Shown here in pieces: positions 24,935 to 38,708 of a DNA stretch of 64,000 bases (position 1 is the first letter of the stretch; each line of letters opens with the position of its first letter). The notes below the pieces were generated by a model. It was not told where the DNA came from. It worked only from the letters and a program-made list of their open reading frames with translations, and did no database searches. This DNA comes from Pseudomonas saponiphila. Its GTDB lineage: Bacteria > Pseudomonadota > Gammaproteobacteria > Pseudomonadales > Pseudomonadaceae. The position numbers were made by a program, and so were the translations under genes. The DNA is taken from positions 1,426,001-1,490,000 of the forward strand of contig NZ_FNTJ01000002.1 in assembly GCF_900105185.1 (NCBI RefSeq), in the 5' to 3' direction.

Positions 24935-24956
24935 GAGAATATTTATCATTATTATC
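24935..24956 (+). promoter_or_regulatory. Fur-type iron box
   Basis: The AT-rich stretch GAGAATATTTATCATTATTA and its last two bases contains overlapping ATTAT/ATAAT-like units. Read on the other strand it begins GATAATAATGATAAATATTC, close to the Fur consensus of GATAAT repeats. It lies 67 bases before the DUF3649 remnant and upstream of the ECF sigma gene, the usual place for Fur control of fecI-type genes. Confidence 0.75.
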
Positions 24957-25022
24957 GTGCGCCTGTTGGCTCCGGGCGCTTGTACTGCATCCGGGCTTCT
25001 CCCCTCGTTCCCAGGTCCAAAC

Positions 25023-25190
25023 ATGAAAAGCAAGACCGGCGGGCTCCCCGCTTACTATCGTCTGGCGGTCGCCTCGCGGGTCTGTGCCGCCGTCCTGGGG
25101 GGCTATCTGCTGGCGGCTACCGGCTGGTGCCTGGGCCTGGTGCCGTCGACGGCGGGGGCAGGCCCCCGCGCCGCCCTGGCCCGATTCTGA
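25023..25190 (+). CDS. Truncated DUF3649-like iron-regulated membrane peptide
   Basis: A 55-residue frame from ATG 25023 reading MKSKTGGLPAYYRLAVASRV and a single hydrophobic segment (CAAVLGGYLLAATGWCLGLV). This matches the first part of DUF3649 proteins, roughly 90-110-residue membrane proteins linked to iron uptake. The remaining helices are absent: the frame ends in a Gly/Ala/Pro tail, and neither other frame continues the family. The stop overlaps the region of the ribosome binding site of the sigma gene, so translation of the two may be coupled. It could be a remnant or a shortened leader peptide. Moderate confidence that it is expressed. Confidence 0.5.
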   Translation: MKSKTGGLPAYYRLAVASRVCAAVLGGYLLAATGWCLGLVPSTAGAGPRAALARF

Positions 25191-25201
25191 AGGAGCGGCC
25201 C

Positions 25202-25780
25202 ATGATGAGCGCCCTGCCACCGGAACCCTCCGATCTGGATCACCCCGATCTGCGGGGCAGTCGCGCGCATTTTCTCCAGGTGTTCCTGTCCCAGCGGGCG
25301 CAGATGGAAGCCCTGGTCAGCCGCCGGGTCGGTTGCCGGGCCACCGCCGCGGACCTGGTGCAGGACCTGTTCCTGCGTTTCTGGCGCCGGCCGCTGGTGC
25401 AGGTCGAAGAACTCAGCACCTACCTGCTGCGCTGTGCCGGCAACATCGCCATCGATCATCTGCGTAGCGAGGGCGCGCGGGTGCGGGTCAGCGAAGGCTG
25501 GCTGCCGGAGCAACAGGACAATCAGGGCTGCGAGCCCCAGGCCGCCCTGGAAGCCGGCAACGATCTGCGCCATGTCGAGGCCGCCCTGCGCAGCCTGCCG
25601 CAGCGTACCCGGCAGATCTTCCTGCTCAACCGCATCCACGGGCGCAAGTACGCCGAGATCGCCAAGGTCATGGGCCTGTCCCAAAGCGCCGTGGAAAAAC
25701 ACATGATGCGCGCCCTCGAAGCCTGCAAGGCCAGCCTGCGGGCCCCCTCGACCCCGCGCACGCCAAGGAATGCACCGTGA
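25202..25780 (+). CDS. FecI-like ECF RNA polymerase sigma factor
   Basis: A 192-residue ECF sigma factor, start ATG 25202 (or 25205), with AAGGAG 6 bases upstream. Sigma region 2 contains CRATAADLVQDLFLRFWRRP, and region 4 contains LPQRTRQIFLLNRIHGRKYA then LSQSAVEKHMMRALEAC, the FecI/PvdS-group pattern. The 3' end overlaps the anti-sigma gene (GTGA). Such factors are released by a FecR partner when a TonB receptor with a signalling domain binds its ligand, and they then transcribe the receptor gene. The receptor here is probably the one at 33070. Upstream Fur-type box implies iron control. Confidence 0.93.
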   Translation: MMSALPPEPSDLDHPDLRGSRAHFLQVFLSQRAQMEALVSRRVGCRATAADLVQDLFLRFWRRPLVQVEELSTYLLRCAGNIAIDHLRSEGARVRVSEGWLPEQQDNQGCEPQAALEAGNDLRHVEAALRSLPQRTRQIFLLNRIHGRKYAEIAKVMGLSQSAVEKHMMRALEACKASLRAPSTPRTPRNAP

Positions 25781-26766
25781 ACCACCGCTCCCGCGTTATC
25801 CCGACGCCCGCCCAGGAACAGGCGGCCCTGGCCTGGCTGAGCCTGCTCCACGATCAGCCCAGCAGCGGTGATCAGGCGACCTTCAGCCAGTGGCTGCAGG
25901 CCGACCCCGCGCACATCGAGGCCTATGCCCAGGCCCAGGTGCTGTGGGAGTTGAGCGAACAGCCGGCGCGGACCCTGGCCGATGAGGACGCTTTTGCCCT
26001 GCAAGGCCTGCTGCGCTCCATGGACGCGGCCAAGGGCCGAGCGCGACGACGCTGGTCGGCGGGCCTGGCCATGGCCGCCAGCCTGGTGCTGGCGGTGGCC
26101 CTGGGCACCGGTTGGCAGCCTGGGCGCTGGGTCGATGACCTGGGGGCCGACTACGTTTCCGCGCCGGGCCAGGTGCACACCGTGACCCTGGCCGACCAGA
26201 GCCAGGTGACCCTGGACGCCGACAGCGCGATTGCCGTGGACTTCAGCGGCGGCGAGCGGCATGTGCAACTGCGCCGCGGCGCCGGATTCTTCAGTGTCAG
26301 CCACACCGGCGCGCCCTTCGTGGTGGCGGCCGGGGAGGGCGAGACACGGGTCCTGGGTACCCAGTTCGAAGTACGCCTGCAACCGGCGGGCGCGCAGGTC
26401 ACGGTGCTGTCCGGGCGGGTCGCGGTCACGGCGGCCCAAGGCGCGGCGCAACAGGTCCTCGGCGCCGGCCAGCAAGTGGCCTACGGGCACGCTGTAGCGA
26501 CCCCGTTGCACGGCGTCGACAGCGAGGCGCAACTGGCCTGGCGCCAGGGTTGGCTGAACTATTACCACGCGCCCCTGGGCGAGGTGGTGGCCGACCTGCG
26601 GCGCTATTTCCCCGGACGCATTGTGCTGCTCAACGACGAGTTGGCGGCGCGCCGGGTCAGCGGCAGTTTCTCCAGCAAGGACCCGCAAGCGGTCCTCGAT
26701 TCCCTGCAGGCCGTCTTGGGCTTCGAGCAGCACCAGCTTTTTGGCCGACTCCTGGTTCTGCGCTGA
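25777..26766 (+). CDS. FecR-family anti-sigma/sigma regulator
   Basis: A 329-residue inner-membrane regulator starting at GTG 25777, overlapping the sigma stop. The N-terminal cytoplasmic DUF4880 part (about 15-60) has AALAWLSLLHD and FSQWLQADPAHIEAYAQAQ. One transmembrane helix lies at about 90-108. The periplasmic FecR domain has LADQSQVTLDADSAI and VLGTQFEVRLQ. The C-terminus (about 255-325) resembles an STN-like module (LNYYHAPLGEVVADLRRYFP). It relays the signal from a TonB receptor to the ECF sigma factor. About 170 bp separate it from exbD. Confidence 0.92.
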   Translation: MNHRSRVIPTPAQEQAALAWLSLLHDQPSSGDQATFSQWLQADPAHIEAYAQAQVLWELSEQPARTLADEDAFALQGLLRSMDAAKGRARRRWSAGLAMAASLVLAVALGTGWQPGRWVDDLGADYVSAPGQVHTVTLADQSQVTLDADSAIAVDFSGGERHVQLRRGAGFFSVSHTGAPFVVAAGEGETRVLGTQFEVRLQPAGAQVTVLSGRVAVTAAQGAAQQVLGAGQQVAYGHAVATPLHGVDSEAQLAWRQGWLNYYHAPLGEVVADLRRYFPGRIVLLNDELAARRVSGSFSSKDPQAVLDSLQAVLGFEQHQLFGRLLVLR

Positions 26767-26934
26767 AAAGCCCGTCCCAGAGCTCCCGAACATTCATCGA
26801 GATCACACCGTTCTGTCACCAAACCGTTATCTCGGAGGCGGATGATCTGCGCATTCCTGAGCACATGGTCAGGATTGGCGAGGGTTGAGATTCAGCTCTC
26901 ACAAGGGAGGGAAGGCTGAAGCGGGAGCAAGACG

Positions 26935-27342
26935 ATGCGCAGCTGGGATGTCGCTAAAAAGAAGAAGGCCCACATCGAAATCATTCCGATGATCGACGTG
27001 ATGATGTTTTTGCTGGTGTTCTTCGTACTCATCAGCCTCAACGTGATCCCGGCCGTAGGGATCAAGACGCAGTTGCCGGTCGCCAGCACCGCGCAACAGT
27101 TGAAGCCGCAAAACAAGGCGGTGATTACCCTGGGTCTGCAGGAACGTCTGCAACTGGACGGACAGGATCTGGATGAAGGGGCACTGTTGGCCCAACTCAA
27201 AGTGCTGAACAACGGCAGTGAAAAGTTGGTGATCATTATCAATAGCGATCAGGGCGTGGAAGTTAAGCGCCTGGTGTCGGTGATGGACTTGCTCAAGGGC
27301 AATGGCTTCTCTTCCGTCTCCATCGCTACACGCAAGTCCTGA
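26935..27342 (+). CDS. exbD: ExbD-type biopolymer transport protein
   Basis: A 135-residue ExbD/TolR protein. A short basic N-terminus (KKKKAH) is followed by the single membrane helix IIPMIDVMMFLLVFFVLI, with the essential proton-path Asp at position 21. The periplasmic domain ends in VKRLVSVMDLLKGNGFSSV. With ExbB it converts proton motive force into motion of TonB. The order is unusual: exbD leads, then tonB, a receptor, and exbB, whereas exbB-exbD-tonB is the common order. tonB starts 5 bases after its stop. Confidence 0.93.
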   Translation: MRSWDVAKKKKAHIEIIPMIDVMMFLLVFFVLISLNVIPAVGIKTQLPVASTAQQLKPQNKAVITLGLQERLQLDGQDLDEGALLAQLKVLNNGSEKLVIIINSDQGVEVKRLVSVMDLLKGNGFSSVSIATRKS

Positions 27343-27346
27343 CGCC

Positions 27347-28117
27347 ATGTTCGCCTTATATAAAACACGCAAGTGGCTGGCGTGCCTGCTGCCGGCTGGC
27401 CTGTTGTTGCTGGTGATCTATACCAGCCAGTTGCAGCAGTTGCAGATCAAGCCGGTGTACGACGAAAGCACCGTGGAAATTGCCCTGGTCGATGCCGCCG
27501 AACTGCTGGCCGCTGCCGAGCCACCGCCGCCGCCCGAGCCCGAGCCGTTGCCCATCGAGCCCGAGCCGCCGCAGGTGGTGCCGGAGGAAGACCCGCTGGT
27601 GATCGAGCCGCCCAAGCCCAAGCCGGTGGTCAAGCCCAAGCCGCCCGTGCCCAAGCCCATGGTGGCCAAGCCCTCGCCACCCAAGCCGGCTCCGGCCGTG
27701 GCCCAGAGCGCCCCAGCAACACCGCAACCCGCCGCGGTGGCCGCCGCCCAACCGGTGGCGCCAGCGGCCGCCGTACCTGCTCCGGCCCCCGCCCCCGCGG
27801 CGCCCAGCAGTGCCATCAAGGAAAGCCTGTACACCGCCGCTTTGCGCAAGGAACTGGAAAAGCACAAGCAATACCCCAGCGGCCGCGAGGCCTCGTTGCA
27901 ACGTCCCCAGGGCGATGTGGTGATCTGGCTGGAAGTCGATCGGGCCGGCAACGTGCTCGACAGTGGCATCGAAAACAAGGCGCCGAACATGTTGCTCAAT
28001 CGCGCCGCGCAAACCAGTTTGCGCCGCGTGGAGAAAGTTTCACCGTTTCCCTCGGACGCGTTCTCCGGCAAGACCAAGCAACGTTTTACCGCGACCTTTA
28101 GTTACAACGTGGAATAA
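27347..28117 (+). CDS. tonB: TonB-family energy transducer
   Basis: A 256-residue TonB starting at ATG 27347. It has an N-terminal membrane anchor (about residues 8-26, LACLLPAGLLLLVIY), a long Pro-rich periplasmic spacer with EPEP and KPKP repeats (about 48-150), and a C-terminal domain with LEKHKQYPSGREASLQRPQG (the YP motif), VDRAGNVLDSGI and TATFSYNVE. The histidine typical of the E. coli TonB anchor helix is absent. It is embedded between exbD and a receptor gene, so it is a dedicated TonB and not the housekeeping copy. Confidence 0.92.
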   Translation: MFALYKTRKWLACLLPAGLLLLVIYTSQLQQLQIKPVYDESTVEIALVDAAELLAAAEPPPPPEPEPLPIEPEPPQVVPEEDPLVIEPPKPKPVVKPKPPVPKPMVAKPSPPKPAPAVAQSAPATPQPAAVAAAQPVAPAAAVPAPAPAPAAPSSAIKESLYTAALRKELEKHKQYPSGREASLQRPQGDVVIWLEVDRAGNVLDSGIENKAPNMLLNRAAQTSLRRVEKVSPFPSDAFSGKTKQRFTATFSYNVE

Positions 28118-28160
28118 ACCCATCACCTATTAACGAAAGTTGTAAGCAAGGGATTGACCC

Positions 28161-30401
28161 GTGAAGATCAATAAACTTTATGCCCTGCTTCTGGCATCGG
28201 GCCTGGGCAGTTTTGCGCCATTGGTTCTGGCCGACGACAGCGTCGACGTCGGTGCGGTGAACGTTGCCGGTAAACAGACCCTGGGCAACGGCCACATGAT
28301 CAAGGAAGAAAGCGCCAAGGGGCGCTCCACCGTGACCAAGGAGGCCATGGACCAGATGGCCCCCACCGCCAACGCCGTGGACAAGCTCAAGTACACCCCG
28401 GGGATCAACGTCTCCAGCACCGACGCCACGGGCCTTAGCGGCACCAACTTCACCATGCGCGGGATGAACTCCGACCAGGTCGGGCTGTCTTCCGACGGTT
28501 TCCCGATCAACGATTCGGGGGACTACAGCATCTACCCCAACCTGATGGGCGACCCGGAGAACTTAAGCGAAGTCTTCGTCACCCAGGGTTCATCCGAGGC
28601 CGACGGCCCGCACATCGGCTCCAGCGGTGGCAACATCGGCCTGGTGACCATCCGCCCGACCAAGGATTTTGGCGTGTTCGCCAAGCAGTCCATCGGCTCG
28701 AACAACGTGCGCAAGAGCTTCGCCCGCTTGAACACCGGCGACCTGGGCGGCTTCAAGACCTGGGTTTCGGCGTCCCACACCGAGGGCGACAAGTGGCGTG
28801 GCAAGGGCACCCTGCGCGCCGACAAGGTCGAGTGGAACACCCTGTTCGAAGACGGTAACGGCAACTCCACCAACGCCATCGTCAAGTACAACCTGCAGGA
28901 AAACTACAACTACAACAGCCTGAGCAAGGCCCAGTTCCAGAACCAGGGCCGGCGCCTGGACTACTCGGAAAACACCGTGTTCAAGAACGGCAGCGTGTCC
29001 CAGTCCTACAAGCTCAACCGCAATCCCTTCGAAAGCGTGACTGCTTCGCTGACCCAGCGCTTCCAGCTGCGCGACGACCTGAGCCTGACCTTCAACCCGT
29101 ACTACGTGTGGTCCAACGGCGGCAGCTTCAGCGGCCAGACTGCCAACAGCCTGTCCGCCAGCTCGAACAAGGCAGGCAACTACGACCTCACCGGCTTGCC
29201 CAGCGGCACCTACTACCGGCCGTCGTGGACCGAAACCTGGCGCCCCGGCATGAGTACCAAGCTCAAGTGGGACCTCAACGACGCCCACAGCCTGGATGTC
29301 GGCTACTGGTACGAGCGCGCCCGTCACCGTCAGACCCAGCCCTTCATCGGCATCAAGGGCAACGGTGCTCCGGAAAATGTCTGGGGCGACTACAACGGCT
29401 CCGACCAACTGGTGGACCGCAACGGCGTCACGGTCCAGGGCCGGCACCAGTACACCGTGACCCCGGCGCAGAAACTCTGGGTGCAGGACACCTGGCAGGC
29501 GACCCCGGACCTGACCCTCACCGGGGTCCTGGCCTACCAGCACGTGGAACGTGACGGCAACAACCTCGGCAGCCTCACCGACAAGCCGGAAAAACGCGAC
29601 ACCAAGTACCACGAGTTCTTGCCGGGCTTCAACGCCAAGTACCAGATCGACCCGAACAACCAGGCGTTCTACAACGTCACCCGCAACATGCGCACGCCGC
29701 CCAACTACGTGCTCTACAACAAGGGTGATTCCATCAGCCTGAAACCCGAGCTGAGCTGGAACCAGGAGCTGGGCTGGCGCTACAGCGAAGAGAACATGGC
29801 CCTGAGCGCGACCCTGTTCTACATCAGCTTCAAGGACCGGCAGATCTCCACCACCGACCTCAACGGCGACTACGTCGTGGCCAACGTCGGCGAAGTGAAG
29901 AACCGCGGCCTGGAGCTGGAGTGGAGCGGCAAGTTGCCCCACGACTTCAACTACTACGCCTCCTACACCTACACCAAGTCCGAGCAGATGAACGACCTGA
30001 CCAACAAGAACGTGCTGCTGCCGACCTCCGGCAAGCAACTGGCCAACGTGCCGGAAAACATGTTCAACCTGAGCCTGGGCTACGACGACTCGCGCTACTA
30101 CGGCAACGTGGTCGGCAAGTACGTCGGCGCCTTCTATGGCGACCTGACCAACGACGAGAAGATCGCCGGGCGCACCGTGGTCGACCTCAACGCCGGTATC
30201 TACCTGCCGGTGGACAAGAAGGTGCTGAAGTCCGCGACCCTGCGCTTCTCCATGCTCAACGTGTTCGACAAGGAATACCTGGCCTCGACCCGCACCGTGT
30301 CGTTCAACAGTCAGAGCACCAACGGCCTGGCGCCGAGCACCGCCTACTACAACGTCGGTGAGGAACGCACCGCGATGGTCTCCCTGGAAGCCGGGTTCTG
30401 A
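28161..30401 (+). CDS. TonB-dependent outer-membrane receptor without signalling domain
   Basis: A 746-residue receptor starting at GTG 28161. A signal peptide ends near LVLA-DD. A possible TonB box follows within DSVDVGAVNVAG, then a plug domain with TPGINVSSTDATGLSGTNFT and GSSGGNIGLVTIRP. The rest is a 22-strand-type barrel ending in the aromatic C-terminus LEAGF. There is no N-terminal STN domain, so it transports but cannot signal to FecR. It lies between tonB and exbB. The barrel is unusually rich in Asn, Tyr and Lys. Iron-chelate uptake is the default guess, but the substrate is not readable. Confidence 0.92.
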   Translation: MKINKLYALLLASGLGSFAPLVLADDSVDVGAVNVAGKQTLGNGHMIKEESAKGRSTVTKEAMDQMAPTANAVDKLKYTPGINVSSTDATGLSGTNFTMRGMNSDQVGLSSDGFPINDSGDYSIYPNLMGDPENLSEVFVTQGSSEADGPHIGSSGGNIGLVTIRPTKDFGVFAKQSIGSNNVRKSFARLNTGDLGGFKTWVSASHTEGDKWRGKGTLRADKVEWNTLFEDGNGNSTNAIVKYNLQENYNYNSLSKAQFQNQGRRLDYSENTVFKNGSVSQSYKLNRNPFESVTASLTQRFQLRDDLSLTFNPYYVWSNGGSFSGQTANSLSASSNKAGNYDLTGLPSGTYYRPSWTETWRPGMSTKLKWDLNDAHSLDVGYWYERARHRQTQPFIGIKGNGAPENVWGDYNGSDQLVDRNGVTVQGRHQYTVTPAQKLWVQDTWQATPDLTLTGVLAYQHVERDGNNLGSLTDKPEKRDTKYHEFLPGFNAKYQIDPNNQAFYNVTRNMRTPPNYVLYNKGDSISLKPELSWNQELGWRYSEENMALSATLFYISFKDRQISTTDLNGDYVVANVGEVKNRGLELEWSGKLPHDFNYYASYTYTKSEQMNDLTNKNVLLPTSGKQLANVPENMFNLSLGYDDSRYYGNVVGKYVGAFYGDLTNDEKIAGRTVVDLNAGIYLPVDKKVLKSATLRFSMLNVFDKEYLASTRTVSFNSQSTNGLAPSTAYYNVGEERTAMVSLEAGF

Positions 30402-30429
30402 TGCCCTTCGGGGCCAAGAGGAAATGACG

Positions 30430-31074
30430 ATGGACATGAATCTGCTGCACGACATCACCTTCTACACCATGTACGGCGCCGCCGCGATTGCCGCCTTTAT
30501 CGCCGTGGAGCGGGGCATCTACTTCAGTTTCAGCCTGCGCCAGGCGAAGAAACTGGAGAGCGTGCTCAACCCGAAAATGCACAGCGTCGACGACCTGCCC
30601 GCCGAGCTGCGCCAGCGCAACAGCCTGCCCCTGGAGATGGTCGCCGAGCTGTTTGCCCACAAGCAGGGGCTGGCCAGCCACAAGGACCTGGAAGACTTGA
30701 GCGAGTCGATCTACATCGCCACCCGCAGCAAGCTGATGCATGGCCTGTGGCTGTTGGAAACCGTGGTTACCGCCGCGCCCTTGCTGGGCCTTCTGGGCAC
30801 CATCCTGGGGATCATCGACACCTTCAAGGCCCTGGCCGAAACCGGCGTCAGCGACCCGGGCGAAGTGTCCAAGGGCATCGGCACCGCGCTCTATGCCACG
30901 GCCCTGGGCATCGCCATCGCCCTGGGCAGCATGATCTTCCACAACCACTTCCAGGACCGGGTCGAGCGCATCACCGACCACCTGAAGATCCTCCTGCTGC
31001 GCGCCGGCATGGGCACCGCGCTGAAGGCCCCCGCGCCCGCAGCCACGATCCAGGGCAACCTGCAACCGGCCTGA
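30430..31074 (+). CDS. exbB: ExbB/MotA/TolQ-type proton channel protein
   Basis: A 214-residue ExbB. I prefer ATG 30430 because AGAGG lies 8-9 bases upstream; the ATG at 30424 abuts it. Helix 1 is FYTMYGAAAIAAFIAV (about 11-26). A cytoplasmic loop runs to about residue 95. Helix 2 is TAAPLLGLLGTILGIIDTF, and helix 3 is GIGTALYATALGIAIALGSM, with the conserved Thr of the proton path. It completes the exbD-tonB-receptor-exbB motor set of this locus. It starts 28 bases after the receptor stop. Confidence 0.92.
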   Translation: MDMNLLHDITFYTMYGAAAIAAFIAVERGIYFSFSLRQAKKLESVLNPKMHSVDDLPAELRQRNSLPLEMVAELFAHKQGLASHKDLEDLSESIYIATRSKLMHGLWLLETVVTAAPLLGLLGTILGIIDTFKALAETGVSDPGEVSKGIGTALYATALGIAIALGSMIFHNHFQDRVERITDHLKILLLRAGMGTALKAPAPAATIQGNLQPA

Positions 31075-31093
31075 TGACCTGAAGTGACCTGTG

Positions 31094-31186
31094 GCCGCTG
31101 CCCCAGGCTGCGATCGACGACGAAGCCGGCGCTGTTCCCCAGCGCTCTTCTGCGCCTGATCCAGGCCTGTGCCAGCGGCTTTTTTT
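31094..31186 (+). terminator. Branched inverted repeat ending in a T-run after exbB
   Basis: An outer stem, GCCGCTG (31094-31100) / CAGCGGC (31173-31179), encloses about 70 bases and is followed by seven T residues. Inside is a second hairpin, GCGCTG-TTCCC-CAGCGC. It sits between exbB and the nucleotidase gene. The outer loop is long for an intrinsic terminator, so it may act as a partial terminator separating the motor operon from the phosphatase gene. Confidence 0.45.
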
Positions 31187-31202
31187 CGCTGATCTGCCAA
31201 GG

Positions 31203-32915
31203 ATGTCTTTCATGTCCCGTCTTCGTCCCATGCCCCGGCTGCTGGGTGCACTGACCCTGGCCCTGGTCGCCCTGGCCGGTTGCAGCTCGCTGACCCGCGA
31301 GCCGCAACCGGTGGCGGTGAACATCGTCGCCATCAACGATTTGCACGGCTACCTGCAAGCCAACCCCTTCAGCTACAAGGACCCGCAGGCCCCGGGCGGG
31401 GTGCGCAAGCTTGCGGCTGGCGGCATCGCCACCCTCGGCGGCATGCTCACCCAGCTGCGCCAACAGGACCCGCAGCTGCTGTTCATCGGCGCTGGCGATC
31501 TGGTGGGCGGCAGCCCGCCGCTGTCGGCGATGTGGGCCGACGAGCCGACCCTGGAGGCCCTGCGCCAGATGGGCATGAAGCTCAGCGCCATCGGCAACCA
31601 CGAACTGGACAACGGCAAGGCCGAGTTCCTGCGCCAGCTCAACGGCGGCTGCCAGTCGTCGCGGCCGGACAAGGCCTGCCAGTTCCGCCCGAACTACCCC
31701 GGCAGCGGTTTCCCCTACCTGGCGGCCAACCTGCTGGACAGCGACACCGGCCAGCCGCTGTTGCCGGCCTATCGCATCGAGGAAGTGCGCGGGGTCAAGG
31801 TGGCCTTCGTCGGCGCGGTGTTGCGGGATGTGGCCTCGGTGGTCAGCGCCAAGGGCATGCGTGGTTTGCAGGTGACCGATGAAGCCGATGCCATCAACCG
31901 GCTGATCCCCGAGCTCAACGCCCAGGGGGTCAACGCCATCGTCGCCGTGGTGCATCAGGGCGGCGCGACCCCGGAGCCGTTCGACCAGCCGGACTGTTCG
32001 CAACTGAGCGGCGATATCGTCGAGGTGGCCAAGCGCCTGGACCCGGCGGTGGACGTGCTGGTCAGCGCCCACTCGCACCAGGGCTACTTGTGCAAGGTCG
32101 GCCCGCTGCTGGTGACCCAGGGCAATGCCTACGGCCATCTGCTGACCCACCTGACCCTGCAAGTGACACCGGGCCAGCACCGGGTGGCGAGCATCCAGGC
32201 GGCCAACCTGCTGGCCGATCCGGCGCGTTATCCACAGGACTCGGCTCTGGCGCAGTTGCAACAACAGGTCGAGGCCCGCAGCAATCAGGTGTTGCTCAAG
32301 CCGGTGGGGGCCATTGCCGCCTCGCCGATTGCCCGGCGCGCCGATGCCGCCGGGGAAATGCCGATTGGCGACCTGATCGCCGACGCCCATCTGGCCGGCG
32401 GCCGGGCGGGCGGTGCGCAGATCGCCTTCATGAACACTGGCGGGATTCGCAGCGACCTGGCCCTGGAACCCGGGCAGACTCAGGTCAACTACGGGCAACT
32501 GGCGACCCTGCAGCCGTTCAACAACAACCTGATTGCCTTCGACCTCACCGGCCGACAGATCGAACAGGTGCTCAACCAGCAGTGGAAGGGCGCGGACGAT
32601 GCCAACATCCTGCAAGTGTCCCAGGGCTTCAGCTATCGCTGGGATGCCAAGCGTCCGCCGGACAGCCGCGTGGTGCCCGGCAGCCTGCGCCTCAATGGCC
32701 AGCCGCTGCGTGCCGAGGCGAACTACCGGGTGGTGATGAACGGTTTCCTGGCCGATGGCGGCGACCGCTTCAGCCTGTTCAAGAGCGGCCGCAACCGCAG
32801 CGACCTCGGGCTCAGTGACCTCGACGCAATGCTCCAGTACCTCAAGGCCATGGACCAGCAGGGCCGGCCAGTGGGCTCCAGCACCAGCGCCGGGCGTATC
32901 CAGCGATCCCTGTAG
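31203..32915 (+). CDS. 5'-nucleotidase/metallophosphatase lipoprotein
   Basis: A 570-residue two-domain enzyme of the UshA/5'-nucleotidase family. The N-terminus is a lipoprotein signal with the lipobox LVALAGC (Cys27), so it is membrane-anchored and exported. Metal-site motifs are NDLHGY (Asp46, His48), GAGDLVGG (Asp99), GNHELDNG (Asn132, His133) and AHSHQG. The C-terminal substrate domain has MNTGGIRSDL and FNNNLIAFDLTG. It hydrolyses phosphate esters outside the cytoplasm. Lying 128 bp after exbB and before an STN-type receptor gene, it should dephosphorylate the ligand or release phosphate from it. ATG 31203 or 31212 are both possible starts. Confidence 0.92.
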   Translation: MSFMSRLRPMPRLLGALTLALVALAGCSSLTREPQPVAVNIVAINDLHGYLQANPFSYKDPQAPGGVRKLAAGGIATLGGMLTQLRQQDPQLLFIGAGDLVGGSPPLSAMWADEPTLEALRQMGMKLSAIGNHELDNGKAEFLRQLNGGCQSSRPDKACQFRPNYPGSGFPYLAANLLDSDTGQPLLPAYRIEEVRGVKVAFVGAVLRDVASVVSAKGMRGLQVTDEADAINRLIPELNAQGVNAIVAVVHQGGATPEPFDQPDCSQLSGDIVEVAKRLDPAVDVLVSAHSHQGYLCKVGPLLVTQGNAYGHLLTHLTLQVTPGQHRVASIQAANLLADPARYPQDSALAQLQQQVEARSNQVLLKPVGAIAASPIARRADAAGEMPIGDLIADAHLAGGRAGGAQIAFMNTGGIRSDLALEPGQTQVNYGQLATLQPFNNNLIAFDLTGRQIEQVLNQQWKGADDANILQVSQGFSYRWDAKRPPDSRVVPGSLRLNGQPLRAEANYRVVMNGFLADGGDRFSLFKSGRNRSDLGLSDLDAMLQYLKAMDQQGRPVGSSTSAGRIQRSL

Positions 32916-33021
32916 CCGCAGGGGGGGATGCCGCGAGGCACAGGCGTGGTGTTTGCCGTCATGAAAATATTTTCAAAAAACAGGTGAGGTCTTTGCGTTC
33001 GAGCTACGTGTAGTGCTTGAA

Positions 33022-33040
33022 AGTGCGACTAATTCGCATT
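33022..33040 (+). promoter_or_regulatory. Candidate regulator site upstream of the signalling receptor
   Basis: A perfect inverted repeat, TGCGA-CTAAT-TCGCA (33024-33038), with extra pairing at the ends lies 30 bases before the receptor start. It resembles a diverged Fur box or the operator near an ECF promoter. The position fits control of the receptor gene, but the match is only partial. Confidence 0.4.
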
Positions 33041-33069
33041 CACGACTTTTTTACACGCGAGTCTCAAGC

Positions 33070-35508
33070 ATGAAGTCCAGGGCACATTCGGCGGCAAACG
33101 CTTCGGTCAAACGGTGGTTCGGCGCTTCGGCGCTGGTGGTTTCAGGGGCGGCGCTGCTGCCTCTGAGTGTTGCATTGGCAGCCCAGGTCGGTGCCGAGCA
33201 ACACAGCGCGCTGTTCAACTTTTCCATCGCGGCCAAGCCGTTGCCCCAAGCCCTGAGCGATTTCACCCGGGTCACCGGGATCAGCGTGGTCTACACCGAC
33301 GACGCGCCCTACAGCCTCCAGGCACCTGCGATCAGCGGCCAGCTCAGCGCCGACCAGGCGCTGCAGCAGCTGTTGGGCAATTCCGGTTTCACCTACCGGC
33401 ACAGCGATGCCCGCACCCTGGTTCTCGAACCCTTGCCGAAAAGCGCCGGGTTGAACCTGGCGCCCACCAGCATCACCGCCCAGGGGCCTGACGACAGCAC
33501 CAGCTACCAGCCGCCGGCCACCACCTCGGTGGCCCGTAGCCAGGCGCTGAACCAGGAAATCCCGCAGATCATCAACGTGGTCCCGGCCCAGGTGCTGAAG
33601 GACCAGACCCCGCGCAACCTGGATGACGCCCTGAAGAACGTCAGTGGCATCACCCAGACCAACACCCTGGGCGGCACCCAGGACGCGGTGTTGCTGCGCG
33701 GTTTTGGCGACAACCGCAACGGTTCGATCATGCGCGACAGCATGCCGGTGGTGCAGGGCCGGGCGCTGAATGCCACGGCGGAGCGGGTTGAAGTGCTCAA
33801 GGGGCCGTCGTCGCTGCTGTACGGCATCCAGGACCCGGGCGGGGTGATCAACGTCGTCAGCAAGAAGCCTGAGTTGCAACAGTCCACTTCCTTGACCGTG
33901 CGCGGCTCGACCTACGGCTCGGGCAAGAACGGCAGCGGTGGCAGCCTGGACACCACCGGTCCGCTCGGCGACTCCGGGTTGGCCTACCGCTTGATCGTCG
34001 ATCACGAAGACGAAGATTACTGGCGCAACTTCGGCACCCACCGCGAATCCCTGGTGGCGCCGTCCCTGGCCTGGTATGGCGAGAGCACCAAGGTGCTGCT
34101 GGCCTATGAACACCGCGAATTTCTGACCCCGTTCGACCGCGGCACGGCCATCGACCCCAAGACCAATCACCCGCTGGACATTCCCGCCACCCGGCGCCTG
34201 GACGAGCCGTTCAACAACATGGAAGGGCGCTCGGACCTGTATCGCTTCGAAGTCGACCACGAGCTCAGCGACGACTGGAAAGCCCACTTCGGCTACAGCT
34301 GGAACCGCGAAACCTACGACGCCAGCCAGGTGCGCCTGACCGCGGTGAATGCCAACGGCACCCTGACTCGAAGCATGGACGGCACCCAGGGCGCCCTGAC
34401 CACCGACCGCTATGCCACCGCCAGCCTGGAAGGCAAGGTGCAACTGGGCGGCATGCAGCACGACCTGGTGTTCGGCCTGGACGACGAGTACCGCAAGATC
34501 TACCGCGCCGACCTGATCCGGCAGAAAAGCCGGACCACCTTCAACTACCTGAACCCGGTCTACGGTCGGGAAGTGGCCGGCACCACGGTCAGCGCCCCGG
34601 ACAGCGACCAGACCGACCTGCTGCGCAGCGACTCGCTGTTCTTCCAGGACGCCATCCACCTCACCGACCAGTGGATCCTGGTGGGCGGCGGGCGCTTCCA
34701 GGAATACGACCAGTACGCCGGCAAGGGCCGGCCGTTCCACGCCAACACCGACAGCAACGGGCAGAAGTTCGTGCCCCGTGCCGGGCTGGTGTATCGCTAC
34801 ACCGACCAGCTGTCGTTCTACGGCAGCTACACCGAGTCGTTCAAACCCAACTCCAGCATCGCCCAGCTGGCTGGCGGCACCGCGGTGCTGGACGGCTCCA
34901 TCGCCCCGGAAGAGGCCAAGTCCTGGGAGCTGGGCGCCAAACTCGACATCCCCGGGCGCATCACCGCCAGCGCGGCGCTGTTCGACATCACCAAGCGCAA
35001 TGTGCTGGTGTCCACGGCCACCGCCACCGAGACCGTCACCAGCGTCGCCGGTGAAGTGCACTCCCAGGGCCTGGAGCTGGACCTGACCGGGCAGCTCACG
35101 GATCAGTGGAGCCTGATCGGCAGCTATGCCTACACCGACACCGAGGTGACCAAGGACACCCAGTACAAGGGCAAGCAACTGCAGAACGTGGCCAAGAACA
35201 GCGGCTCGCTGTCGGCGGTCTACGACTTCGGCAGCCTGATCGGCGGCGACCGCCTGCGGGTCGGCGCCGGGGCTCGTTATGTCGGCCAGCGCGCCGGGGA
35301 CGCGCCCAACAGCTTCGACCTGCCGGGCTACACCGTGGCCGATGCCTTCGCCACCTACGACACCCGGCTCGAAGGGCAGAAGGTCAAGTTCCAGCTCAAC
35401 GTGAAGAACCTGTTCGACAAGACCTACTACACCTCGTCGGCCAGCAAGTTCTTCGTGTCCATGGGTGATGCTCGCCAAGTATCGCTGTCCAGCACCCTGG
35501 AGTTCTGA
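33070..35508 (+). CDS. TonB-dependent receptor with STN signalling domain (FecA-like transducer)
   Basis: An 812-residue receptor from ATG 33070; the frame is open back to 33013. A long signal peptide (about 1-38) precedes an STN domain at about 49-118 (FNFSIAAKPLPQALSDFTRV through ARTLVLE). This is the part that touches FecR in the periplasm. The plug follows, with VPAQVLKDQTPRNLDDALKN and GPSSLLYGIQDPGGVINVVS, then a siderophore-receptor-type barrel ending in SSTLEF. It is the only STN receptor in the window, so it is the likely input for the sigma/FecR pair at 25202-26766. Its stop overlaps the next ATG by one base. Confidence 0.93.
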   Translation: MKSRAHSAANASVKRWFGASALVVSGAALLPLSVALAAQVGAEQHSALFNFSIAAKPLPQALSDFTRVTGISVVYTDDAPYSLQAPAISGQLSADQALQQLLGNSGFTYRHSDARTLVLEPLPKSAGLNLAPTSITAQGPDDSTSYQPPATTSVARSQALNQEIPQIINVVPAQVLKDQTPRNLDDALKNVSGITQTNTLGGTQDAVLLRGFGDNRNGSIMRDSMPVVQGRALNATAERVEVLKGPSSLLYGIQDPGGVINVVSKKPELQQSTSLTVRGSTYGSGKNGSGGSLDTTGPLGDSGLAYRLIVDHEDEDYWRNFGTHRESLVAPSLAWYGESTKVLLAYEHREFLTPFDRGTAIDPKTNHPLDIPATRRLDEPFNNMEGRSDLYRFEVDHELSDDWKAHFGYSWNRETYDASQVRLTAVNANGTLTRSMDGTQGALTTDRYATASLEGKVQLGGMQHDLVFGLDDEYRKIYRADLIRQKSRTTFNYLNPVYGREVAGTTVSAPDSDQTDLLRSDSLFFQDAIHLTDQWILVGGGRFQEYDQYAGKGRPFHANTDSNGQKFVPRAGLVYRYTDQLSFYGSYTESFKPNSSIAQLAGGTAVLDGSIAPEEAKSWELGAKLDIPGRITASAALFDITKRNVLVSTATATETVTSVAGEVHSQGLELDLTGQLTDQWSLIGSYAYTDTEVTKDTQYKGKQLQNVAKNSGSLSAVYDFGSLIGGDRLRVGAGARYVGQRAGDAPNSFDLPGYTVADAFATYDTRLEGQKVKFQLNVKNLFDKTYYTSSASKFFVSMGDARQVSLSSTLEF

Positions 35509-36557
35509 TGAAGGCCCTGACCCTGAGTGCGTTCCTGGCGTTTTGCGGCGTGGCCCAGGCCGCCTCGCCAACGGATGAGCGCCTGTACCACCGCGAGCAG
35601 CAAGTGCAGTTGCCGGGTGCCGGCAGCAGCTGGGGCTTTATCTCCCTGGACCCGACCCGGCCCTACCTTTACGTGGCCCGGCGCGAGAACGGCCTGAGCG
35701 TGTTCGATGTGGACAAGCAGCGTCTGCTGCGCACCGTCGAGCAATCACAGGGAGCCAACGGCGTGGTGGCGCTGCCCGAACTGAACCGTCTGCTGGTGCT
35801 CAACACCGACGGCAGCCTGGGGCTGGTGGAGTTATCCACACTCAAGCCGCTCAAGCGCATCGCCGTGACCCAGAGCAACCTCAATAGCGCGGTGTACGAG
35901 CCGCGCACCGGGCAGGTGATCATCGTCAGCGGGCGCCGGGCCGATCGTTCGACCCTGTTCGTGTTCGATCCCAAGGAGGAACGGATCACTGCGGCCCATG
36001 AGCTGGCGGTGAAGAAGATCGACCCCTTGCTGCTCAAGGGCGATGGCAGTTTCTTTTTGCCGATGCGCGACGAAGGCATCGTCGCGCGGTTGTCCTCCAG
36101 CAGCTTCAAGGTCCTGGATCGCTGGCAGTATCCCGACTGTCAGCGGCCCAGTGCCCTGGCCCAGGATGAACAGCGTGGGCGGCTGTTCGTCGCCTGCCGC
36201 GGTGAGCGGCCGCTGCTGCTGGTGCTCGACCGCGACAGCGGCGCGCTGAAGGCCAGCCTGCCGATCACCCGCGACGTCAACGCCCTGGCCTACGACCCCC
36301 AGGCCCGGCGCTTGCTGATTGCCAGCGGGGTGGACGCCAACCTCAGCGTCATCGCCCAGCTCGACGCCGACCGCTACCAGGCCCTGGGCAGCGTCAGCAC
36401 CCAGCCCATGGCCTACAACATGGCATTCGACCCCCGCAGTCAGCGGGTCTATCTGGCGGCGATGGACTTCACCCAGCCGGCCGCCAGCCCGGCCGACCCC
36501 AAGCCGGATCCGCTGTTTCACGCCAATACCTTCAAGGTCATCACCCTGGCGCCCTAG
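35508..36557 (+). CDS. Periplasmic YncE-like beta-propeller protein
   Basis: A 349-residue protein with a signal peptide (MKALTLSAFLAFCGVAQAAS) and then repeated blades such as PTRPYLYVARRENGLSVFDV, PELNRLLVLNTDGSLGLVEL and PQARRLLIASGVDANLSVIA. This is the seven-bladed YncE/YVTN propeller pattern. The ATG overlaps the receptor stop (TGATG), so it is co-translated with the TonB receptor and probably helps bind or hand over the same ligand in the periplasm. YncE of E. coli is iron-regulated, which fits. No catalytic motif is visible. Its stop overlaps that of the convergent acid phosphatase. Confidence 0.85.
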   Translation: MKALTLSAFLAFCGVAQAASPTDERLYHREQQVQLPGAGSSWGFISLDPTRPYLYVARRENGLSVFDVDKQRLLRTVEQSQGANGVVALPELNRLLVLNTDGSLGLVELSTLKPLKRIAVTQSNLNSAVYEPRTGQVIIVSGRRADRSTLFVFDPKEERITAAHELAVKKIDPLLLKGDGSFFLPMRDEGIVARLSSSSFKVLDRWQYPDCQRPSALAQDEQRGRLFVACRGERPLLLVLDRDSGALKASLPITRDVNALAYDPQARRLLIASGVDANLSVIAQLDADRYQALGSVSTQPMAYNMAFDPRSQRVYLAAMDFTQPAASPADPKPDPLFHANTFKVITLAP

Positions 36558-37381
36558 TCGGCGCCCAGTGCCAGGGCTTGCGCTTGTGCCGCGCAGTCGC
36601 CGCTGGCGGTCAGGCCCTTGGCGCGGACGGCCAGTAACTCTTGCCGGGCGACGGCGAAGTCGGCCTGGAAGGTCGGGTCGGCGTGCAAGCGTGCCACGGT
36701 GGTCGCGCCGATCTCGCGGCCTTCGCGCACATCGCTGTACCAATGCACGTTGCACACCATGCGACTTTCCGAATAGGCCCGGCCACGGGCCCAGAGCGCG
36801 TTGCCGTGCTCGGGGGCCAGTTCGCTCAACAGCAGCGCCCAGGCCCAGCCGATGGCGCTGTGGCCCGATGGGTAGGAACCGTCCGCGGCCAGCTTGGCCT
36901 CATCTTCCGGGGTGCAGCTGGGCTGCTGGTTGTAGACGAAGGGCCGGCTGCGCTGGTAGCGCTTCTTGGCGCTGTAGGTGGCCAGCCCGGCGTCGGTCAG
37001 GGTCCGGCGCAAGACTCTGTACAACACTGGTGTGTGCTGTTCGCTGATTGGCGCATCCAAGGCACAGGAAAACGTCTCTGCGGCGGCGGGGAACTTCAGG
37101 TTGGCATCGCTGATAGCCAGCTCCCAGCGTTTTCCGCCGCGCAAGGCCTGGCTTTTTTCAGCCATGCGCTGGTCCAGAGCGAAGGCCGGAGTGCCCGGCG
37201 CAGGAGGTGGCGGCAACAGCGACAGACTATTGGGCAGATCCTGCTGTTTCAGATAACCGATCAAGTAACCCGGCCGGAACTCCGGGATATTTTCCACTGT
37301 ACCGGTTTGTTTGGCTGCGACAGGGTTGAACAGGCTTATAAACAACAGGCTGGATAAACTTTTCAATAATAGGCGTTGCAT
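36554..37381 (-). CDS. Class A non-specific acid phosphatase (PAP2 superfamily)
   Basis: A 275-residue secreted phosphatase with a signal peptide (about 1-23). The full PAP2 signature is present: Lys139-x6-Arg146-Pro147, PSGH at 171-174 and SR-x5-H-x3-D at 206-217, with GSYPSGHSAIGW typical of PhoN-type class A enzymes. It acts in the periplasm or outside on a broad range of phosphomonoesters. It is convergent with the receptor/propeller operon (stops overlap by two bases) and upstream of nothing on its own strand. OprD lies just upstream (gap 52 bp) and is probably co-transcribed. A second phosphatase in one uptake locus is notable. Confidence 0.92.
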   Translation of the reverse strand: MQRLLLKSLSSLLFISLFNPVAAKQTGTVENIPEFRPGYLIGYLKQQDLPNSLSLLPPPPAPGTPAFALDQRMAEKSQALRGGKRWELAISDANLKFPAAAETFSCALDAPISEQHTPVLYRVLRRTLTDAGLATYSAKKRYQRSRPFVYNQQPSCTPEDEAKLAADGSYPSGHSAIGWAWALLLSELAPEHGNALWARGRAYSESRMVCNVHWYSDVREGREIGATTVARLHADPTFQADFAVARQELLAVRAKGLTASGDCAAQAQALALGAD

Positions 37382-37433
37382 GGAAATGGCACCTCCAGGT
37401 ATTCGAATTGTTACATCGGCTCTGTGTATTGAG

Positions 37434-38708
37434 TTACTTGATGTTCCAGGAATAGTTGAACATCAAGCGGGTGTCGTCAGTGTCGCGAATGAAGTTCTTG
37501 GCGTAATTGGAACGATAGAGTGCACTGCGCAGGCGCACACTCAAGTTTTTCAGTGGGCCTTGTTGCACGACATAGCGCAGTTCATTATCCAGCTCCCATG
37601 ATTTGCCAATAGTGCGGGTGCCGGTGATCTCGGCATGGCTGCCGGATATATAGCGACTATTGAGGCTCAGGCCCGGCAAGCCCAGGCTGGCGAAGTCATA
37701 GCCATAACGCAGGGCCCAGGAGCGCTCCTTGGCATTGGCGAAGTCGCCCAATATGGACAAGTTGATCAGGTTGGCATCGGCCCCCAGGATGTTGGCATAC
37801 CCGGTGTCGCCCAACATTCGCTGGTAGGTCAGGCCAAGGCTGTGGCCCTTGTAGGCGTAGCCGAGCAACCCCTGCAATGCGCGGTTATCGATCTTGCCGC
37901 CCTTGGCATCGCCGTAGTCGTTCATCAGGCTCAGGCGCAGATCGCCGCTGAACGTTCCCGGTCCCCAGGGGCTCTTGCCGACCAGGGTGAAGACCTGCTG
38001 GCGGTAGATGTCCTCCAACTGGGCGACATGCACGCGAGCCAGCCATTGCTTGTGGAATCGGTAGTCGATGCCTGCCATGTCGAAGTGTTCCGCGGTTGCC
38101 CCCTGGCCTTGAAAGCGCCGGTTCAAGGGGCTCAGGGTCAGCGGGGTGTACTCCGTGGCGTTGCGCTGCATGACCCGGCTCAGGCGCCCGGCGGTCAATT
38201 CCAGGTCGTCGATTTCATTCGAGGTCAGCAGCCCGCCTTCGAAAACCTGCGGAAACAGGCGGCCGTCGTTGGGTTTCAGCGTCGGCAGTGTCGGTGGCAC
38301 CAGGGCGCCGAACTTGAACTGGGTCTTGCTGGCCTTGAGCTTCCCGGCCAGGGCGAGTTTCCAATAGTCATCCTCGGCCCGGCCATTGCGCGCCACCTTC
38401 AGCAGCCCGGTGCCGCTTCGGCCGGGGGCGGAATCCAGCTTGATCCCGAGCATGCCGATGGCGTCGGCACCGACACCGATGCGGCCCTCGGTAAACCCCG
38501 AGTCCAGGTGCAGGAGGAAGCCTTGCGCCCATTCTTCTCGGGGCGGGGCGGTGCCTTCGCGATAGTCCCGGTTGAAGTAGTAGTTGCGCAGTTCCAGGCG
38601 AGCGCTGCTGTCGTCCAGCAGTTTGGCGTTCACCGGAACGGCCAGTATCGAGGCACACATTAGGGTCGAGCACTTGACCCATTGTCGTGGCAAGTTTCTT
38701 GAACGCAT
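37434..38708 (-). CDS. OprD-family outer-membrane porin
   Basis: A 424-residue OprD/OccD-OccK-type porin. A signal peptide ends near VNA, and the family opening is SSARLELRNYYFNRDYREG, then EEWAQGFLLHLDSGFTEGRI and GLLKVARNGRAEDDYWKLAL. The barrel ends NYSWNIK. OprD porins admit small, mostly anionic or basic organic nutrients. It is the promoter-proximal gene before the acid phosphatase, so it may take up the dephosphorylated product. A long AT-rich leader region lies upstream. Confidence 0.9.
   Translation of the reverse strand: MRSRNLPRQWVKCSTLMCASILAVPVNAKLLDDSSARLELRNYYFNRDYREGTAPPREEWAQGFLLHLDSGFTEGRIGVGADAIGMLGIKLDSAPGRSGTGLLKVARNGRAEDDYWKLALAGKLKASKTQFKFGALVPPTLPTLKPNDGRLFPQVFEGGLLTSNEIDDLELTAGRLSRVMQRNATEYTPLTLSPLNRRFQGQGATAEHFDMAGIDYRFHKQWLARVHVAQLEDIYRQQVFTLVGKSPWGPGTFSGDLRLSLMNDYGDAKGGKIDNRALQGLLGYAYKGHSLGLTYQRMLGDTGYANILGADANLINLSILGDFANAKERSWALRYGYDFASLGLPGLSLNSRYISGSHAEITGTRTIGKSWELDNELRYVVQQGPLKNLSVRLRSALYRSNYAKNFIRDTDDTRLMFNYSWNIK

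Follow-up and report, generated by a model that had tools for sequence, protein, structure and literature searches.

A TonB-dependent receptor module linked to phosphoesterases within a siderophore-signalling unit of Pseudomonas saponiphila

The window analyzed here, 64,000 nucleotides of Pseudomonas saponiphila (contig NZ_FNTJ01000002.1, positions 1,426,001 to 1,490,000; genome size 7.38 Mb), contains a block of uptake genes with two TonB-dependent receptors, TBDR1 and TBDR2, a 5'-nucleotidase lipoprotein (NT5), a class A acid phosphatase and an OprD-family porin (Table 1). The nearest named relatives of the locus are those of P. protegens and P. piscis. In a previous sequence-only reading, the block had been described as one system for a phosphorylated ligand, possibly carrying iron. 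All genes named there are open frames with the families expected from profiles. The Fur-type site reported there is the best match in the window to the Fur consensus. Comparison with other genomes divides the block into three units. Units 1 and 3 are ordinary. Unit 2 is unusual, a TonB cassette to which one of several exchangeable phosphoesterases is tightly linked.

Table 1. Features of the block and their positions in the window.
Feature	Position	Strand	Unit	Basis or remark
Fur-box-like site	24935..24953	+	1	15/19 consensus positions
Remnant open reading frame, DUF3649-like start fused to last codons of DUF3325 gene	25023..25190	+		blastn against six sibling loci
ECF sigma factor, FecI-like	25202..25780	+	1	family profiles
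FecR-type sigma regulator	25777..26766	+	1	family profiles
Pho-box-like promoter CTGTCAC-N4-CCGTTAT, 10 bp, GATGAT	26813..26846	+	2	matrix score
Inverted repeat CTGA-N8-TCAG, exbD 5' leader	26857..26872	+		kept in related leaders
ExbD	26935..27342	+	2	Pfam PF02472
TonB	27347..28117	+	2	PF03544, TIGR01352
TBDR1, TonB-dependent receptor (Plug + barrel, no STN)	28161..30401	+	2	
ExbB	30430..31074	+	2	PF01618
NT5, 5'-nucleotidase lipoprotein	31203..32915	+	2	PF00149 + PF02872; lipobox LAGC
Palindrome TGAAAATATTTTCA, perfect	32962-32975			upstream of TBDR2 promoter motif
ECF-type promoter motif of TBDR2, GAGGT-N16-CGTGTAGTG	32986..33015	+	1	
Fur-like inverted repeat TGCGACTAATTCGCA	33024..33038	+	1	
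TBDR2, siderophore-type receptor, FoxA/FhuA-like (STN + Plug + barrel)	33070..35508	+	1	
Beta-propeller, YncE fold	35508..36557	+	1 (variable)	
Class A acid phosphatase	36554..37381	-	3	lineage-specific
OprD-family porin, OpdH-like	37434..38708	-	3	lineage-specific

Unit 1 contains the complete set of Fec-type parts identified by Pfam: an extracytoplasmic function (ECF) sigma factor, FecR and an STN-bearing receptor. TBDR2 scored 385 bits against the siderophore-receptor model TIGR01783, above the cut-off of 223.5, and relatives of TBDR2 (E<=1e-160) are present in 176 of 219 Pseudomonas genomes. Gene order was compared in 17 further TBDR2 loci, hand-picked as lying away from TBDR1. The ECF and FecR genes stand directly ahead of TBDR2 in 15 of these, and in 15 of the 17 loci neither TBDR1 nor NT5 nor the acid phosphatase accompanies ECF-FecR-TBDR2. 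AraC and EamA genes follow the unit in 14 loci, some with one or two intervening genes, and DUF3649-PepSY-DUF3325 precede it in nine. The names PepSY and DUF3325 were obtained from Pfam; the third gene we take to be DUF3649, and the PepSY gene presumably encodes a siderophore reductase. Ahead of the sigma gene, next to the Fur site, a deletion of ∼2 kb relative to the sibling loci has left a fusion of 55 codons. The deletion removed most of DUF3649, all of PepSY and most of DUF3325; locus L008 retains all three there. The propeller behind TBDR2 is at best weakly similar to known sequence families, and its predicted model folds as E. coli YncE. A gene for a penicillin-binding S13 peptidase (L037:15258-16562) was observed after TBDR2 in eight loci (L024, L037, L047, L086, L087, L088, L095 and L096), and sits behind the propeller in L024 and L096.

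Promoter motifs were scanned in loci L007-L100 and the window. All 27 occurrences of GAGGT-N13..19-CGTGTAGTG lie ahead of TBDR2, in 27 of the 33 TBDR2 loci scanned. The Fur-like repeat pattern TGCGACTAATTCGCA was likewise found only in front of TBDR2 (21/21), and the palindrome TGAAAATATTTTCA is exact ahead of this gene in eight scanned loci. Unit 1 is a common Fur/ECF siderophore-signalling set, and its TBDR2 gene is preceded by a separate promoter motif. In the window, exbD-tonB-TBDR1-exbB-NT5 (unit 2) is located between FecR and TBDR2 of this common unit. Comparison of gene order shows the module to be an insertion into the siderophore-signalling unit, and the block to be a mosaic.

One gene-order comparison of TBDR1 comprised 32 relatives among 33 loci (L039, without TBDR1, was left out). 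A survey of the 219 Pseudomonas genomes (E<=1e-120) yielded 50 places. Three of them, at 35-37% identity and in another gene context (G085, G128, G159), were excluded, and all counts refer to the 47 places with at least 55% identity (39 genomes). In 38 of these exbB is directly downstream of TBDR1, and the contig stops short of exbD in two of the 38 (L052, L141). The gene following TBDR1-exbB is NT5 in eight cases, a gene of the phospholipase D (PLD) family in 29 and both in one (L077), and thus a phosphoesterase gene in 38 of 38. The PLD-family partner proteins begin with a signal-like start. The other nine places hold a lone TBDR1 behind FecR, one of which (L047) has TBDR2 next. Neither NT5 nor PLD is the next gene in any of the nine.

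The linkage also holds in the reverse direction. Among the 31 PLD genes in the 219 genomes (E<=1e-60), 30 lie inside a module. The 31st (L140) has the same flanking genes as module locus L105 and may therefore be a module remnant. NT5 (E<=1e-80) was found at 12 places in 11 genomes, nine of them after a module exbB. At L081 an intact NT5 gene is preceded by a 77-codon remnant of the ExbB C-terminus (L081:9458-9691); this locus is a decayed module that kept its nucleotidase. TBDR1 is present in 9 of 11 NT5 genomes versus 30 of 208 others (Fisher p ~3e-6, which serves only as a guide since the species are related). In-frame stops interrupt the PLD gene of G212 (L055) and the TBDR1 gene of G119 (L074). 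This two-way association, as read from gene neighbourhoods, argues strongly for a link of the TBDR1 module with phosphoester hydrolysis, and it is the strongest claim that the data carry.

What the partner genes encode narrows the candidate ligands. NT5 has Metallophos and 5_nucleotid_C domains, and its best solved match is the nucleotidase 3IVD. Its metal-site motifs and both aromatic base-clamp positions are present, with residue roles that we take to be those of CD73 and UshA. Ten distinct NT5 loci have neither an ECF gene nor a PhoD-like gene. In nine of them a cytidine deaminase (Cdd) and a CNT nucleoside transporter follow NT5 on the same strand (L027, L028, L030, L031, L033 and L035 from the P. 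fragi group and kin, and L052, L053 and L054). Six of these loci (L028, L030, L031 and L052-L054) also contain DeoC-DeoA-DeoB, and DeoD is present in all four Deo loci that extend to its position. The tenth (L038 and L051, one contig from two sources) carries a YcdC-like TetR gene and an NCS2 permease after NT5. The closest solved match of the PLD protein is a Serratia plymuthica enzyme (7E0M, 5e-175), followed by the 5'-3' exonucleases PLD4 and PLD3. In the excerpted text of the structure paper, the authors note nuclease-like features and ask whether the Serratia enzyme cuts nucleic acid (PMC8004604). A PhoD-like phosphatase is divergently encoded upstream in all 30 Pseudomonas loci (the PLD type plus L077 and L078) that reach that side.

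Taken together, the NT5 motifs, the PLD kinship, PhoD and the Cdd, CNT and Deo genes suggest nucleotides or nucleic-acid fragments as the ligand, with other phosphodiesters as the main rival. In the latter case, TBDR1 would import glycerophosphodiesters or phospholipid head-groups freed by PLD and PhoD, and NT5 of the window would be a general phosphatase. Indeed, the commonest partners are PLD and PhoD, not NT5, and an M20 peptidase or phytase-like gene lies near some loci. Moreover, the same excerpt characterizes the Serratia enzyme as a phospholipase and leaves nuclease activity open (PMC8004604), so phospholipid head-groups are possible ligands for PLD-type modules. However, the partner in the TBDR1 clade of the window is NT5 with its base-clamp motifs, and relatives add Cdd, CNT and Deo. 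We therefore regard import of other phosphodiesters as unlikely, although it is the alternative with most in its favour.

The promoter region of exbD differs from that of TBDR2. In the scanned loci and the window, neither exbD nor TBDR1 showed the GAGGT/CGTGTAGTG motif, and ECF control of the module was rejected. A conserved block, CTGTCAC-CAAA-CCGTTAC followed by ten bases and GATGAT, is located ahead of exbD or the lone TBDR1. Its layout is that of a PhoB promoter, as at the pst genes of the same genome. A first Pho score of exbD upstream regions gave mixed results. A universal Pho box was rejected; a plain genome-wide consensus scan gave 14 matches, hardly more than the 10 in the reversed control. 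The regions were then scored with a matrix combining half-sites, which we took from eight E. coli sites and three sites of the own genome, with spacing and a -10 element. Of 859 control upstream regions, one equalled or exceeded the score of the site in the window. Scores within the top 5% of controls were reached by 11 of 12 type A regions, five of the six lone-type regions tested (of 23), 8 of 10 regions of the ECF-free NT5 type (both misses being one contig) and the single region of L102. The PLD/PhoD Pseudomonas type gave 26 of 30, including L061, L065 and L103 at another position. As these regions are related, they are not independent tests. From these upstream regions, we take it as likely that the module would be under phosphate control in the lineage of the window. 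The leaders also carry a CTGA-N-GGTCAG repeat, with 16 matches in exbD leaders and 21 in TBDR1 leaders; the loose pattern occurs 47 times elsewhere in the scanned loci. Its TGGTCA half we take to resemble the RutR operator. A YcdC-like TetR gene is present in some loci.

The lone TBDR1 genes bear on a different explanation, in which the ECF-FecR unit has recruited TBDR1 as a receptor for iron (a xenosiderophore) and NT5 is a hitch-hiker. In 9 of 47 places a lone TBDR1 follows FecR and has no NT5, a position that would suit an iron gene, and a Fur site lies at the head of the unit. The best models of TBDR1, all below cut-off, are siderophore and haem receptors; its score against TIGR01783 is 141 bits (cut-off 223.5). 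An AlphaFold model of TBDR1 was set aside at a mean predicted local distance difference test (pLDDT) score of 49.8. No STN domain was found in TBDR1 by the Pfam scan, so that it does not classify as a Fec-type signalling receptor. A maximum-likelihood tree with midpoint root was built from 34 of 82 extracted TBDR1 proteins (near-copies dropped, L102 left out). The window TBDR1 groups with receptors that have NT5 and with lone ones (91/91), and the nucleoside-operon loci belong to this clade. All lone genes cluster together (100/100) next to the window type (100/100), a topology that suggests loss of motor and NT5 from the lone loci. A PLD gene is present elsewhere in eight of the nine lone-TBDR1 genomes versus 23 of 210 others, the species being related, and the lone receptor could borrow the motor of that module. 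The two-way NT5/PLD linkage, the lack of the ECF promoter motif in the scanned loci and of STN, the single clade of the lone genes and the PLD gene elsewhere in most of their genomes speak against an iron receptor, which we consider improbable. Nothing pointed to iron on a phosphorylated ligand for TBDR1, a possibility that the sequence-only reading had raised.

In wider searches, TBDR1 was detected in 4 of 299 genomes of a phylum sample (E<=1e-110), two of them outside the genus, and in 1 of 145 genomes of an order sample (E<=1e-120), namely the own genome. A probably enterobacterial family was sampled because G437 had a match, and 6 of its 149 genomes contain the module (E<=1e-110). It is also found on a Chimaeribacter plasmid. 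All seven enterobacterial-type modules outside the genus carry PLD, and PhoD was not found beside them within the stretches retrieved. In L102, from another family, NT5 and PLD lie together behind one module, and in L115 the motor genes and PLD are oriented opposite to TBDR1. A phytase-like protein is encoded after PLD in two modules outside Pseudomonas (L101:4534-5907, PF13449 by domain scan; L114:4594-5955, a look-alike). A 35% relative of TBDR1 (L080:8184-12130) has tonB-, exbB- and exbD-like genes of its own, next to oxidoreductase and aldehyde-dehydrogenase-like genes named by reading the sequence. This is perhaps another dedicated-motor uptake locus.

The acid phosphatase of unit 3 carries what we take to be the complete class A signature, KX6RP-PSGH-SRX5HX3D. 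It scored 203.7 bits against the PhoC model (cut-off 430) and is thus not PhoC itself. The porin belongs to the OprD family, with OpdH, a porin for tricarboxylates such as cis-aconitate, as best PDB match (E 2.4e-119). An acid phosphatase of at least 87% identity is present in 2 of the 219 Pseudomonas genomes; another six reach 48-49%, and their coordinates place none of them beside TBDR1. Eleven full-module loci extend to the spot between TBDR2 or the propeller and AraC. Six of them (the window, L007-L010 and L041) have acid phosphatase and OprD there, whereas L012, L013, L029, L032 and L042 do not, L012 and L029 being contigs of the same strain. The pair was found at this spot in none of the 17 hand-picked TBDR2 loci. 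Unit 3, acid phosphatase plus OpdH-like porin, is a third insertion unrelated to the others, which stands beside the module in close relatives only.

These data bear directly on the proposal that both receptors, both phosphatases and OprD act on one phosphorylated iron ligand. The genes are contiguous in the window and in five other loci, three of which (L007, L009 and L041) have no propeller. The parts are otherwise found separately: TBDR2 in 176 genomes, TBDR1 (55% identity or more) in 39 and the close acid phosphatase in two, with separate promoters and separate insertion points. Of the 47 TBDR1 places, two have both phosphatases and OprD alongside, so that the proposal fails the co-conservation check set out in the sequence-only reading, and ECF-FecR-TBDR2 stands alone in most of the loci picked away from TBDR1. 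One joint system is thus extremely unlikely, and uptake of the product through OprD found no support. The idea of a phosphorylated ligand, with nucleotides among the candidates, that is dephosphorylated outside the cytoplasm holds up for exbD-tonB-TBDR1-exbB-NT5, where linkage and nucleoside genes agree with it, and fails for the block as a whole.

With a probability of roughly 0.6, we read the block as an iron-uptake unit split by a phosphoester-scavenging module, whose receptor TBDR1 takes up a nucleotide or nucleic-acid fragment. We infer the ligand, the direction of events, the place of NT5 and the phosphate control. The iron-starvation unit (Fur site, ECF, FecR, TBDR2 and propeller) would sense and import a ferric siderophore. 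Phosphate shortage would switch on the Pho-box-like promoter of the module, and at the cell surface TBDR1 would bind its ligand, a nucleotide or a short piece of nucleic acid. The ExbB-ExbD-TonB motor of the module would power transfer of the ligand to the periplasm, where lipoprotein NT5 would cut it into nucleoside and phosphate. Phosphate would enter via Pst, and species with a nucleoside transporter and Cdd/Deo enzymes would use the nucleoside.

Several observations weigh against this reading, in addition to the lone genes behind FecR, the model matches of TBDR1 and the phospholipase record of the Serratia enzyme. Two NT5 homologues (54-55%; L082:9090-10739 and L083:8602-10230, the latter with an in-frame TGA) lie in tctCBA/OprD loci of the tricarboxylate type, with gene names read from sequence, and not at a TonB module. 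A CNT transporter is absent from the own genome (no match to PF07662; other nucleoside transporters were not searched), which leaves the nucleoside half of the pathway hypothetical there. One control upstream region, that of an unrelated gene in L078, exceeded the Pho-like score of the window. Outside types A, B and D there is a weak match only, and none of the seven enterobacterial-type regions was in the top 5%. A study of the Pseudomonas phosphorus exoproteome, whose main text has no 'TonB', names PhoD and UshA in its excerpt among low-phosphate exoproteins and reports no secretion of an UshA-like protein by P. putida BIRD-1 when phosphate was low (PMC5082522).

A broader and more tentative proposal, to which we give somewhat less than even odds, is that TBDR1 is the founding member of a TonB-dependent transporter family that takes up nucleotides or oligonucleotides. 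Such receptors would be carried as a cassette together with a dedicated motor and a phosphoesterase that varies between loci (5'-nucleotidase, PLD3/4-like exonuclease or PhoD), here inserted into a siderophore-signalling operon. If true, an energised outer-membrane route for nucleotides would be new; the routes described in the excerpted sources are mainly pores (Tsx, OmpK). The two-way tie to nucleotidases and PLD phosphodiesterases makes such a route directly testable in Pseudomonas and suggests what kind of ligand an orphan receptor family may bind. It also cautions that contiguous uptake genes need not be one system.

Among known systems, unit 1 resembles the Fec/Fox/Fiu-type surface signalling of Pseudomonas in its ECF factor, FecR, STN receptor, Fur-like site and conserved receptor promoter motif. 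It differs in that the operon is split by the inserted module and has lost, at this spot, the neighbouring DUF3649-PepSY-DUF3325 genes of its siblings. With E. coli PqqU (YncD) and YncE, the block shares weak matches of both receptors to the PqqU model and a propeller predicted to be YncE-folded. However, TBDR1 and TBDR2 reach 78.5 and 92.4 bits against the NCBIfam PqqU model (cut-off 1200) and are not PqqU, and the propeller has ∼16% identity to YncE. NT5 has both domains and the base-clamp motifs of the UshA/CD73 5'-nucleotidases; unlike these, it is a predicted lipoprotein encoded behind a TonB motor. The PUMA3/Hxc region of P. aeruginosa likewise combines an ECF sigma factor, a FecR-like regulator, ExbBD/TonB homologues and a secreted phosphatase. 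In the excerpted text, however, no nucleotidase-linked TonB receptor is described, VreA has a TolA-like C-terminal domain, and the phosphatase exits by type II secretion (PMC2729926). In strain Pf-5, the excerpted source lists five tonB-exbB-exbD clusters, two of them iron-regulated (PMC3377617). The iron-induced Pf-5 receptor PFL_0932 is a possible counterpart of TBDR1. Among the papers listed by our searches of open-licence literature, no title or abstract start described the module or a TonB-dependent nucleotide transporter, and a 2024 review of TonB substrates mentions nucleosides, in its excerpt, only with the porin Tsx (PMC11658791). The closest functional parallel is the use of extracellular DNA as a nutrient by Vibrio cholerae, which according to the excerpted paper employs Xds/Dns, OmpK, UshA/CpdB/PhoX and NupC, with nucleases induced at low phosphate (PMC4723616). 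There, as in the NT5-Cdd-CNT-Deo loci, extracytoplasmic phosphoesterases feed nucleosides to CNT transporters. The outer-membrane step in V. cholerae is the pore OmpK, with no 'TonB' in the main text, whereas here a TonB-dependent receptor with its own motor would serve this step.

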